NCBI GenBank assembly: GCA_016186425.1
Contig: JACPLR010000026.1
Span: 1-46,818 of the forward strand
Source: Candidatus Pacearchaeota archaeon
Lineage (GTDB): Archaea > Nanobdellota > Nanobdellia > Pacearchaeales > GW2011-AR1
Length of the DNA: 46,818 bases
Reading direction: 5' to 3'
A program made the translations under genes and the position numbers. Position 1 is the first letter of the stretch. Each line of letters opens with the position of its first letter. Positions 37,783 to 46,818 of this stretch are shown in pieces. The notes below the pieces were generated by a model. It was given only the letters and a program-made list of their open reading frames with translations. It did not search any database and had not been told where the DNA came from.

Positions 37783-38781
37783 GAGCCTATCCACAAAGGC
37801 TCTTTTTCCAAACAATAATTCCACAAGCAAAATAGATTAATGCCAAATAATTATCTAATTTTTTATTCCATCTTATTAATAATCCTCTAAATCTATTTAT
37901 CCAGCTAGCAGTTCTTTCAACAACCCATCTTCTTGCTTTTTTCAAAAGTCTTTTTTCAAGTTGTTTCTTTTCTTCTCCTCTTGGGCGAAGATGCATGATA
38001 TATGATAACTCATTACATAAATCTTCAATTTCTTCGCCTTGATATCCTGCATCTAAATAGAGATGTTGTTTTCCTCTTTCAATTTTTTTGCGATTGAACG
38101 GAATACTCTCCATGGTTTTTCTGGCAAGTTTGCAGTCATGCCTGTTGGCTCCAGCAACAGCAATTCCGATAGGAATTCCATTTGCTTCTGTAAGAATACT
38201 TCTTTTTGCCCTTTTTTTGCCCTATCAGTTGGATTAGCTCCTGTTTCTTCCCCACCTAACGGAGCTTTTGTTGTAGAACCGTCGAGAGATTGCCATTTTA
38301 ACTGCAATCCCTTTACTTCATCATAAAACATTAATCCTCTCCACCAAAACTCAAAGAATACTCCTGCTTTTGCCCATTCCTGAAATCTTTTATGGGCTAC
38401 TGAATGCCTACAAATATCGGTATTATCTAATGTCTGCCATTGGCATCCTGTTCTCATAACAAAAAATATTCCATCCATTGCTTTTCTGTCGTCAATTCTT
38501 CTTTTATGGCATTTCAATGGATGATTATCAATTGGTTTAGGAATTATCTGCTTCATTTCTTCCCAAATAAAATCTGGAATTCTTCCACCATCGTCTTTGA
38601 CGATATATCCCATTTTACCTCCTTTTTGATAATTTCATTTATTTCCAAGAATGAACTTTTTTCCTTCTATTCTCATTCTTGGCAAAGAGAGAAAAGAGAG
38701 AAAGTAAAAATCAGACTATATTTATAAATCTGTCGATTAATCAAAATTTTGTTAGAAATTATTTCCTATAGGGATAGGCTC
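37783..38781 (-). mobile_element. IS5-family-like insertion sequence, 999 bp
   Basis: 10-bp perfect terminal inverted repeats GAGCCTATCC (37783-37792) / GGATAGGCTC (38772-38781), flanking TAT direct repeat, DDE transposase inside. Confidence 0.88.
37787..38613 (-). CDS. IS5-family transposase, expressed across a -1 frameshift
   Basis: SLDGSTTKAPLGGEETGANPTDRAKKG (frame 0) then AKRSILTEANGIPIGIAVAGANRHDCKLARKTMESIP...LYLDAGYQGEEIEDL...ARRWVVERTASWINRFRGLLIRW (-1 frame); A_AAA_AAA at 38212-38218. Confidence 0.9.
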
Positions 38782-42280: not shown

Positions 42281-42898
42281 ACATACGTGGCAAGGATACC
42301 TCTGCTTTTAAGCAGAGTGAGGAATTGCCACCCTCAAAATTTAATTCTTCTAAGTTGTTAAAATAACTGAGGCTCTGTTGAGCCCCAGAATCTAAATTAT
42401 CAGATTTAGCATGAGCTATATTCTGAGGAGATAAAAAATGAATTTGACAAGTACTAAACACGCATTCGGACAAAATGCTTTCCATTTTGTTTGGAAGTGT
42501 AAATATGCCAAAGACCCTATGAAGTTTTATGGGGTTAGGATGGATTGTGAATTCTTTATTAGACAAGTCGCTTACAGACATGGATTCAAAATTTATGAAT
42601 TGCATATTGCTGTTGACCATATCCACTTGTTTGTTGAAATGCCGACTACTATGAGTGTTAGTAAAGCTTTGCAATTGTTCAAGGGGTATTCTGCCTACAA
42701 ACTTTTGCAGAAACATCCCTGGCTGAGAAATTATTTCACCAAAGGGCATTTCTGGAGTCCAGGAAAATTCTTTAGAAGTGTTGGAAATACAACTAGTGAA
42801 GCTGTTGAACATTATATCAGTTCTTCTCAACCTTGGCTTGATTTGTGATAACATTTTTTTATTTGGTGATACCTCGCCCTTTAGGGCGGGGTGATTCA
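42281..42898 (+). mobile_element. IS200/IS605-family element, tnpA only (boundaries approximate)
   Basis: Y1 transposase flanked by subterminal palindromes gatacCTCTGCTTTTAAGCAGAG (left) and gatacctCGCCCTTTAGGGCG (right); no inverted terminal repeats. Confidence 0.85.
42438..42848 (+). CDS. tnpA: IS200-type Y1 transposase TnpA
   Basis: HIAVDHIHLFVEMP (HUH), FWSPGKFFRSVGNTTSEAVEHYISSSQ (catalytic Tyr region). Confidence 0.93.
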   Translation: MNLTSTKHAFGQNAFHFVWKCKYAKDPMKFYGVRMDCEFFIRQVAYRHGFKIYELHIAVDHIHLFVEMPTTMSVSKALQLFKGYSAYKLLQKHPWLRNYFTKGHFWSPGKFFRSVGNTTSEAVEHYISSSQPWLDL

Positions 42899-43519: not shown

Positions 43520-44311
43520 ATGGCATTAAAACTAAATGCAACAAGAGAAGCGTACCAAGAATTTTACGGCAGAAATGTAGAGCAGATGCCGAAATTAATA
43601 GCCGACGGCAGAGTTCCTATGAATGTTGCTCAATTGATGCAAAGACGACTTGATGTTAGAAATTCTGATAAGGCAGTTAAGAGTTCTTATATGGATAATT
43701 ATTTTGATACAGGAGATGCTGTTGTATATCATCCTGATAGTAGAGTAAAGATAGTCCTTGATTCTCAAACTTTAAGAGATATGGCTCCTGAAAACAAGAA
43801 AGTTAACGGAGCGTTAATTCTAACAGATGAGGTTTATAAAGAATTGCAAGGTGAAGAATTTAAGAAAGGAAGATTAGGAAAAACAGAAAGTTCCCTTTCA
43901 AGAGAAGATGTTAAAGCTCATCCAGTTTGGAAAGTTCTAGCAAGAGACCAAGGATTGCTTAATGATTATGTTGATTATATCTTTGCAGAGGGTAAAGAAA
44001 GATTTGATTATGATACTGCAATGGGAGTTTACCTAGATTCAACAAGTAATGATGTGAAAATGAGGGCGTGGTGTGTCAGCAGGCTCGAGAACAGGTCTTA
44101 TGCCTATGGCTGGTACTACCTTGACTACGACAATGGTCGTTTCGTTGGAATAGCGCCAGAGGCGCTTAGTGCGCTGGGCAAAGGTGCTTCAAATATAAGA
44201 GCTTACACAATGGCTGATTTACAAGCGGTTGATAAAGCAATGAATGGTTTAGAAAGAACCTTACATCCTGATGTATTAAAACCATTCCAAGAATTAAGAA
44301 AAAAACTATAA
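43520..44311 (+). CDS. DGR target (variable) protein
   Basis: 263 aa; contains VR-encoded MRAWCVSRLENRSYAYGWYYLDYDNGRFVGI; fold probably C-type-lectin-like by analogy. Confidence 0.88.
   Translation: MALKLNATREAYQEFYGRNVEQMPKLIADGRVPMNVAQLMQRRLDVRNSDKAVKSSYMDNYFDTGDAVVYHPDSRVKIVLDSQTLRDMAPENKKVNGALILTDEVYKELQGEEFKKGRLGKTESSLSREDVKAHPVWKVLARDQGLLNDYVDYIFAEGKERFDYDTAMGVYLDSTSNDVKMRAWCVSRLENRSYAYGWYYLDYDNGRFVGIAPEALSALGKGASNIRAYTMADLQAVDKAMNGLERTLHPDVLKPFQELRKKL
44064..44152 (+). repeat. DGR variable repeat (VR), 89 bp
   Basis: 80/89 identical to 44532-44620; all 9 differences at template adenines (6 A>T, 3 A>G). Confidence 0.95.
44152..44166 (+). promoter_or_regulatory. hairpin immediately downstream of VR (DGR target-recognition-like)
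   Basis: AGCGCC-AGA-GGCGCT, 6-bp stem, absent after TR. Confidence 0.65.
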
Positions 44312-44390
44312 TTATCTTTTACAATTTCTTAGGAAATAAAAGTTGAAAATTATTACAACAATCTTTTTATAATCTGTTTATTAAATCTCT

Positions 44391-44531
44391 ATGTCCTGGC
44401 AACCGTGGAAACATGAGAAGCTGGGTTATACGCTCTTTCACGAGGGCAATATAGCTGTCATAAAATACACCCACAACACCTAATGTGTGAAGTGGTGGTG
44501 ATAAATTAATAAGTGAAAGGGCTATGCTCTG
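44391..44531 (+). ncRNA. putative leader of the TR transcript (may contain a 30-aa mini-ORF)
   Basis: Upstream tttttataatc TATA-like box; GC richer than flanks; ORF 44391-44483 MSWQPWKHEKLGYTLFHEGNIAVIKYTHNT; hairpin CACC..ACACctaatGTGT..GGTG. Confidence 0.4.
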
Positions 44532-44620
44532 GGGCGTGGTATGTCAACAGGCTCGAGAACAGGTCTAATGCCAATGGCAGGAACAACCTTGACAACAACA
44601 ATGGTCGTTTCGTTGGAATA
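44532..44620 (+). repeat. DGR template repeat (TR), 89 bp
   Basis: Noncoding copy of VR with 27 adenines, 9 changed in VR; ends 3 nt from the RT stop codon. Confidence 0.95.
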
Positions 44621-44622
44621 AC

Positions 44623-46083
44623 TCATTTTGTTGCAGGACATTTTTTATTTTCACTCCATTTTCTTTTTGATTTAATACTTGCTATTACACAAGCAATTTC
44701 ATCGTAGGTTATCAAATCGTCTTTTAATCTCTTTTTAATATCCTTTAATCTTTCTTTATAACTATAAGTTTTATTTAGGATTTTATGTATTTTTTCTCTT
44801 GATAAAATTTCCCAGACAGATAATTGTTTATATTCTATTAAATTAATTAAATGCCTCCAAACAGTAGCTTCTTTGATTCTCTCTTTAATTGCAATTTCTT
44901 TTATGCTCAGACCATTTTTATAATGAAATAATGTTTTTTGAACAGAAAATAATAATTCACTTTCCTTAACTCTCTTGATATAATTTGCGTAATTTTTCTT
45001 ATTATGAACTAATAACTTTTCCCCATGAGAAAAGTTTTTATTGAAATTTCGAATCAAATGTTTTCTATACTTATGAGTGTTCGCATGTGAACAATAAGCC
45101 AGCCATCCTTCTAATGATTCAAGGGCTTTTTCTCTTCCAATAATTCCTTCGTCAAATAATATTCTGAGATGGTTATATTTTCTTTCAAAATTCTTTAAAT
45201 TACTCTTTCTTATAAGTTTGTGATAGTAGAAAATTCTAAACCCTAGAAAGTTTATTCCACCACTTAATTTTAGAACATGAGACTTGCTGGGATGCAATTC
45301 TATTTTTAATTTATCTTTTAGAAAATCATTAATCTTAATTTTCCATTCTTCAAGCTGTTCTTTTGACTCATGTAAGATAACAAAATCATCAACATACCTG
45401 ATATAATACTTAACTTTCAATTTATGTTTTACAAATTGGTCTAATTTATTCAGATAAAGATTTGCGAAGAATTGGCTTGTTAAGTTACCCAAAGGCATTC
45501 CTTTATTTCTGATATGATAAGATTGGCTTCGCCCCCCCCCGATTTGGTTATTTTTTAATATTTGCTTAATTAACCAAATAACTTTTTCGTCTGCGACTTT
45601 TGTTCTTATTATCTTTATTAAAATTTCATGATTAATTTCTTCAAAATAATGCTTAATATCAGCTTTCAAAACATAACATTCCCTTGTATTATTTCTAGAT
45701 ATTTTTCTTTTGAATTCATCAAATCTTTTTATAGCTTTTAGAGTTCCTTTTCCTATTTGATTGGCATAAGAATCATAAATAAAACCTTTTTCAAATATAG
45801 GCATTATAATTAGACATAGTGCATGATAAATAATTCTATCTCTGAAAGCAGATTTTGAGATTTTGCGTGTTTTTGGGTCTCTTAATATGAATGTTTTTAA
45901 TACATAAGGCTCATAAGATTGATTTTTTAGTTCTTTTTGTAATTTGCTTAAGTTATTTTTAAGATTTTTCTGAAAACGCTTTACATATCTTCTTTTAGTT
46001 TTCCCTCTTTTAGCATTTTGCCAAGCCATTAGAAGATTGTTATCATCATATATTTTAGAGTAAATGTTATTATTAATATCCAT
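44623..46083 (-). CDS. DGR reverse transcriptase with C-terminal HTH_40-like extension
   Basis: GMPLGNLTSQFFANLYLNKLDQF (DGR LGxxxSQ), YIRYVDDFVIL, HPSKSHVLKLSGGINFLGFRIF; tail LSIKEIAIKERIKEATVWRHLINLIEYKQLSVWEIL. Confidence 0.95.
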   Translation of the reverse strand: MDINNNIYSKIYDDNNLLMAWQNAKRGKTKRRYVKRFQKNLKNNLSKLQKELKNQSYEPYVLKTFILRDPKTRKISKSAFRDRIIYHALCLIIMPIFEKGFIYDSYANQIGKGTLKAIKRFDEFKRKISRNNTRECYVLKADIKHYFEEINHEILIKIIRTKVADEKVIWLIKQILKNNQIGGGRSQSYHIRNKGMPLGNLTSQFFANLYLNKLDQFVKHKLKVKYYIRYVDDFVILHESKEQLEEWKIKINDFLKDKLKIELHPSKSHVLKLSGGINFLGFRIFYYHKLIRKSNLKNFERKYNHLRILFDEGIIGREKALESLEGWLAYCSHANTHKYRKHLIRNFNKNFSHGEKLLVHNKKNYANYIKRVKESELLFSVQKTLFHYKNGLSIKEIAIKERIKEATVWRHLINLIEYKQLSVWEILSREKIHKILNKTYSYKERLKDIKKRLKDDLITYDEIACVIASIKSKRKWSENKKCPATK

Positions 46084-46286: not shown

Positions 46287-46460
46287 ATGGCAGATGAATT
46301 ATTTAATCTTAATAGAACCTATAGAAAAGCTTATAAATATGGGCATAATGGTAATTATAACATGATCCCCAGTGATCCTAATGGGTCGCTGGATGAGTCT
46401 TTTTTTAATTTTAATCTTTCAATTCATATTTTGGCTATAGGAGGGCTTTATCATGGATAA
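46287..46460 (+). CDS. hypothetical short protein
   Basis: MADELFNLNRTYRKAYKYGHNGNYNMIPSDPNGSLDESF... Confidence 0.45.
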   Translation: MADELFNLNRTYRKAYKYGHNGNYNMIPSDPNGSLDESFFNFNLSIHILAIGGLYHG

Positions 46461-46818
46461 AACTCTTGTTTTCTTGGATGCAGGTTTTTTGTCTAAACTT
46501 TCTAAACATTTTGGCAAAGGCCAATATTTAAAATATGATATTATTAAATTTGCTAAGAATTTAGCTGAAAAACAAAATTTGCTTTGCGAAAAGATTTTTT
46601 ATTATACTGCCCCCCCATTTCAAAGCGAGAAACCTACTAAAGAGGAATCTAATAGATATAAAAAATATGAGAATTTTATAACAAAACTTTCTAAAAATAA
46701 GATTATTTCAGTAAGAGAAGGCAGATGCCAAAGGCTAAAATTTAATGATTACTTTATTTTCAAACAAAAAGCTGTAGATTCTTTAGTTGTTATAGATTTA
46801 TTATCTGTTCCAATAGAT
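46453..46818 (+). CDS. NYN/PIN-like (LabA/DUF88) protein, truncated by window end
   Basis: MDKTLVFLDAGFLSKLSKHFG...CEKIFYYTAPPFQSEKPT...KAVDSLVVIDLLS: DxG start and (D)S.. pattern of NYN domains. Confidence 0.7.
   Translation, partial: MDKTLVFLDAGFLSKLSKHFGKGQYLKYDIIKFAKNLAEKQNLLCEKIFYYTAPPFQSEKPTKEESNRYKKYENFITKLSKNKIISVREGRCQRLKFNDYFIFKQKAVDSLVVIDLLSVPID

Follow-up and report, generated by a model that had tools for sequence, protein, structure and literature searches.

A slippery poly-G tract in the reverse transcriptase gene of a Pacearchaeota-group diversity-generating retroelement: a probable phase-variable switch on targeted hypermutation

The closest described systems are the diversity-generating retroelements (DGRs) of DPANN archaea and Nanoarchaeota (Paul et al. 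2015, PMC4372165; Roux et al. 2021, PMC8144416), with which the locus analyzed here shares a DGR-type reverse transcriptase (RT), adenine-specific differences between template repeat (TR) and variable repeat (VR), and a domainless orphan target protein; several DGRs per genome likewise occur, in this case in relatives of the locus. In contrast to these systems, the RT gene contains a poly-G tract, the RT is fused to an HTH_40 domain, and it is encoded convergently with the TR. The DGR of Bordetella phage BPP-1 has in common the RT fold and motifs, the hairpin at the VR and an RNA leader beside the TR; however, the loop preceding motif B of its RT is short and repeat-free, whereas the corresponding loop here contains nine G. 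A further parallel is provided by bacterial slipped-strand contingency loci (PMC11868660), in which a poly-G or dinucleotide tract inside a gene is found in all three phases while the rest of the gene is conserved; there, the switched gene encodes a surface structure or a methyltransferase, whereas here it encodes an archaeal hypermutation enzyme. Phasevarions, i.e., phase-variable DNA methyltransferases (PMC11868660), are similar in that the switch resides in one enzyme acting on other loci, but their downstream effect is methylation rather than targeted sequence diversification. How widely such loci occur across archaea is described as still to be explored in a review of phase variation.

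In the window, by which we mean the entire analyzed stretch of 46,818 nucleotides, the DGR target gene occupies positions 43520–44311 of the plus strand and encodes a 263-aa protein of an orphan family, with the VR (44064–44152) situated inside the gene, 52 aa short of the C-terminus. The TR is located at 44532–44620 of the same strand. Direct alignment of the two repeats is gapless, with 80 of 89 positions identical, and all nine mismatches fall on adenines of the TR (six A>T and three A>G, with 27 adenines available); if mismatches were distributed randomly over the 89 sites, this would occur with a chance of about 7e-6. Every one of the nine differences is nonsynonymous in the target (Y>C, N>S, five N>Y, R>W and N>D). 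These values reproduce exactly what the initial annotation had read from the repeat, including its list of codon changes; under a DGR-tolerant score, the match extends by 2 bases, adding a tenth A>G. The genome-wide TR search for additional VRs proposed there was carried out on all 868,632 bases of the genome (88% complete) and returned only the TR itself and the one VR. An IS200-like transposase gene (Y1_Tnp) is located at 42438–42848, approximately 0.7 kb upstream of the target gene, and a transposase-like gene, split between two overlapping frames, lies on the minus strand at 37787–38613.

A hairpin following the VR is known from the BPP-1 DGR. At the window locus, a perfect 6-bp stem (AGCGCC-AGA-GGCGCT, 44152–44166, plus strand) lies directly 3' of the VR, in the position of a DGR-target recognition hairpin. 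Across 108 cassettes, a stem of at least 5 bp was present within 45 nt 3' of the VR in 72, whereas the TR had one in 25 cases and shuffled sequence in 16. The RT gene (44623–46083, minus strand) is an intact ORF of 486 aa containing RVT_1 and a C-terminal HTH_40 domain, and its end lies 3 bases from the TR on the opposite strand; the RT and TR run in opposite directions in few cassettes (10 of 108).

The template-RNA leader was identified through Rfam: a match to RT-16 (RF03019) covers the model end to end at 44395–44530 of the plus strand, scoring 72.8 bits against a gathering score of 50, and the TR starts one base past its end. Each of the 29 relatives that were searched (L041–L114) has RT-16 adjoining the TR, i.e., 15 of 15 loci whose RT gene is out of frame (see below) and 14 of 14 in-frame loci, and all 15 out-of-frame loci score above the curated RT-16 score. 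This invariable placement indicates that RT-16 is the template-RNA leader of the DGRs in this group. The target protein itself had no match in Pfam, NCBIfam, PADLOC, PHROGs or the PDB sequences, and its model, which is of low confidence, VR region included, had no fold match in the PDB; a C-type lectin or Ig fold was matched neither by sequence nor by fold with this low-confidence model of the VR region. Homologous proteins serve as DGR targets in L048, L041, L068, L289 and other loci.

Domain search of the window RT recovered RVT_1 (1.2e-24) and HTH_40 (1.4e-14), and the LGNLTSQ and YVDD motifs reported in the initial annotation are both present in the intact ORF. A profile of 17 family RTs searched against the PDB gave a DGR RT, 8ub7, as the best match (E 1.5e-58), followed by group II intron RTs (6e-33). 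Similarly, a Foldseek search with a moderately confident AlphaFold model (pLDDT 67) placed DGR RTs in the top five positions, led by 8ubd and 8ub7; we take the entries 8ub7–8ube to be RT structures of the BPP-1 DGR. Judged by sequence profile and predicted fold, the window RT is of the DGR type. Among the best 80 matches, named RT relatives were found first in Candidatus Pacearchaeota, then in Woesearchaeota and Nanoarchaeota, and the host is a tiny, groundwater-type member of the Pacearchaeota group of DPANN archaea. The assignment of the locus as a DGR is supported by the TR/VR pair, the nonsynonymous VR differences in the target, the RNA leader, the hairpin, which follows the VR and not the TR, and the RT type, all in agreement with the archaeal DGR proposed at the outset. 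Membership of the DGR family and the adenine-only differences predict that adenine-mutated cDNA would replace the VR at the window locus. A search with PF05635 for the accessory protein Avd gave no match, and its control likewise gave none. A viral origin was considered and rejected, as the RT alone had no match in IMG/VR and the loop repeat was present in none of the 53 viral RTs recovered by an alignment-based search.

The RT gene contains GGGGGGGGG at 45532–45540 (minus strand), which is the sole run of eight or more G on either strand of the 868-kb genome. The nine G encode three glycines (codons 182–184, in the context IGGGRS) in a loop just ahead of GMPLGNLTSQ, and the tract is in frame in the window assembly. 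This loop is strongly variable in length in the RT alignment, is short and devoid of repeats in the solved DGR RT, and at residues 181–199 has some of the lowest confidence in the RT model. As read from its predicted frame, the window copy is in the ON state, with nine G keeping the gene open. The related locus L048 has the same layout with ten G and is out of frame; its RT shares 80% identity with the window RT across the 294 C-terminal residues that aligned. The view of the initial annotation that the system type was known stands for the cassette, but the feature most out of the ordinary was overlooked, namely the slippery poly-G in the RT and the frame-shifted counterparts in relatives. In 29 of 41 poly-G loci, the tract in the RT loop is followed by CGAA (CGAAGCC in the window), which is rare after other runs of at least six G; a CGAA flank was also observed at some non-RT tracts. 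In addition, a C7 run at 46610–46616 lies in a partial ORF (46453–46818) that adjoins the RT gene and leaves the contig, and may be slippery too.

To analyze the variability of the loop, 160 RT loci were fetched, of which 153 could be scored. Family loci were drawn from the matches listed and class-level loci were partly hand-picked, so that the frame ratio at class level is not a census; the family census served for counting frames, since the scan of the best 80 matches in named genomes favors in-frame genes. With one assembly per species, all frame comparisons are between species. Across 181 family genomes, many RT matches appeared as two pieces in different frames, with the break exactly at the loop, and the repeats found there were poly-G (6–27), (GA)n of up to 54 nt, or poly-C. 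A repeat was present at the loop in 64 of the 153 scored loci and, among the family matches listed, in 54 of 105. Within these listed matches, the 31 poly-G loci were distributed over the three frames as 11/10/10 and the 22 (GA)n loci as 8/4/10 (14 out of frame), one locus carried poly-C, and 49 of the 51 loci without a repeat were in frame. Poly-G at the loop was also detected in other orders of the class. Considering all scored loci, the RT gene was out of frame in 41 of 64 cases with a repeat compared with 2 of 89 cases without (P 3e-18), and the frames of the repeat-bearing genes (23/16/25) were compatible with a random distribution (P 0.35). The two repeat-free exceptions are an interrupted poly-G (L101) and a deletion (L094). 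In out-of-frame genes, the shifted frame reaches a stop 13 to 53 codons past residue 172, and motif B and YVDD are consequently not made. L116 and L117 come from different genera, and their RT fragments show no difference across the part of the loop region that was compared, which points to a recent transfer or a binning error.

The repeats are strongly concentrated in the RT loop. In 1.13 Mb of these loci, the density of G or C runs of at least nine in the loop was about 1,200 times that of the non-RT flanks, and all 12 runs of (GA)7 or longer fell within the loop. Four loci (L270, L271, L274 and L276) are repeat-free at this position, but a different loop, past YVDD, contains a poly-G tract of 10 or 12; in each of the four this tract breaks the frame, and the frame downstream of it is open and conserved. 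In L325, poly-C14 lies between the RT and HTH_40 (at about 4792, minus-oriented strand) and puts only HTH_40 out of frame, and in L264, poly-C10 close to the RT C-terminus is in frame. Together, these tracts indicate that repeats entered the RT gene at several positions. The first codons of surface-protein genes are the usual place for contingency loci, and in eight further loci of family genomes (L334, L336, L337, L339, L345, L349, L351 and L353), a long ORF whose start resembles a signal peptide, as judged by eye, has poly-G or (GA)n in its first codons. One genome, G114, contains six poly-G9 tracts, and 10 of the 20 (GA)7+ tracts in the 181 family genomes lie within DGR RTs. Slippage loci thus seem to be more generally used by these archaea, the DGR RT being a favored one.

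Two features of slipped-strand loci were observed: a repeat of short units lies inside the coding frame, and a gene that is otherwise intact occurs in both in-frame and out-of-frame forms between species (23 in frame and 41 out of frame among repeat-bearing RT genes). It is probable, in our assessment, that the DGR RT is a phase-variable contingency locus in which replication slippage turns hypermutation on and off. One alternative is that these are ordinary DGRs, the out-of-frame repeat-bearing RTs being recent pseudogenes and the repeats the weak points at which RTs die first. DGRs can indeed be lost, and random frames are in line with this reading, as is the excess of long tracts that are out of frame: no more than 8 of 48 keep the frame, less than the expected one third (P 0.014). 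However, the out-of-frame loci resemble the in-frame ones in the other features compared. Only 1 of the 41 has stops elsewhere in the gene, 40 of 41 keep the catalytic motifs, both RT halves and RT-16 are retained, and a seed-and-extend search found TR/VR pairs in 31 of 41 out-of-frame and 18 of 23 in-frame loci, with similar rates of non-A mismatches (0.0082 and 0.0065, respectively; P 0.66). In a tree of 146 RTs built with the loop left out, repeat presence tracks the phylogeny (31 changes against 47.9 when shuffled, with none of 200 shuffles as low), whereas the in/out state does not (19 changes against 19.1). Repeat presence is thus inherited, and the frame changes faster than the sampled lineages split. 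This scatter of frame states over the tree, the roughly 1,200-fold concentration in the loop, the three unit types and the recurrence of repeats in a second loop all argue against pseudogenization, and neutral decay would leave the gain and upkeep of slippery repeats unexplained; we consider this alternative unlikely.

A technical origin of the out-of-frame calls was also considered, since the records are mostly metagenome assemblies and indel errors favor homopolymer runs. We rejected a homopolymer artefact and regard sequencing or assembly error as extremely improbable: the repeats themselves are real, the dinucleotide (GA)n is out of frame equally often (14 of 22), repeat-free RTs are in frame in 87 of 89 cases, and frame shares of about one third each differ from the small excess that errors would produce. 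Finally, recoding at slippery homopolymers occurs in other genes, and the tract could be a site of ribosomal frameshifting or transcriptional slippage that yields some full-length RT, at a low dose, from any genomic frame, a reading with which the clean TR/VR pairs of the out-of-frame loci would agree. The occurrence of all three frames speaks against any fixed programmed shift, which was rejected as the main reading on this ground, and (GA)n and poly-G share no common known recoding signal. Recoding as the explanation of the tract is accordingly very unlikely, although recoding and phase variation could coexist.

Under the phase-variation model, a tract length that is in frame, such as the nine G of the window, would allow the full RT to be made, which would reverse-transcribe the RT-16/TR RNA and introduce errors at adenines, and the resulting cDNA would replace the VR of the target as far as the 3' end marked by the hairpin. 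Slippage adding or removing a repeat unit would end translation shortly past the tract, before LGxxxSQ and YVDD; a truncated RT without motif B and YVDD should be dead, diversification would stop, and the current target variant would be frozen until a further slip restored the RT frame. The benefit may be bet-hedging, with the target protein diversified in some cells and fixed in others. The DGR anatomy, the tract, the broken frames of other species and the otherwise preserved loci were observed directly, whereas slippage within one population, its reversibility and its benefit are inferred. The long tracts, so rarely in frame, could include some that are permanently off, or the off state could be favored. 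About half of the family RTs carry no repeat, and the switch is therefore not required for DGR function. More broadly, we consider it probable that the Pacearchaeota group and related DPANN archaea place a heritable random on/off switch on targeted hypermutation through poly-G/(GA)n slippage in the RT, separating diversifying from fixed-target lines, and that the RT belongs to a wider archaeal set of contingency loci that includes surface proteins.

While the cassette type is known, a slippage-driven on/off switch of the DGR RT appears to be new as far as the literature was searched. Term searches of PMC8144416, PMC4372165, PMC10907252 (PNAS 2024) and the review PMC8867640 revealed no mention of an RT switched by a repeat or frameshift, and targeted literature searches returned no report of a switched DGR RT, their coverage stopping short of Paul et al. 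2017, where an earlier mention is possible.

How a dangerous built-in mutator is controlled is a poorly answered question of DGR biology, as constant rewriting of the target would destroy good variants. If the model is true, a slippage switch on the RT would offer a simple answer, with some cells diversifying while others freeze the variant they hold. It would also couple phase variation with retroelement-driven hypermutation, both of them well-known strategies of diversification, and add uncultured archaea to the organisms with contingency loci.
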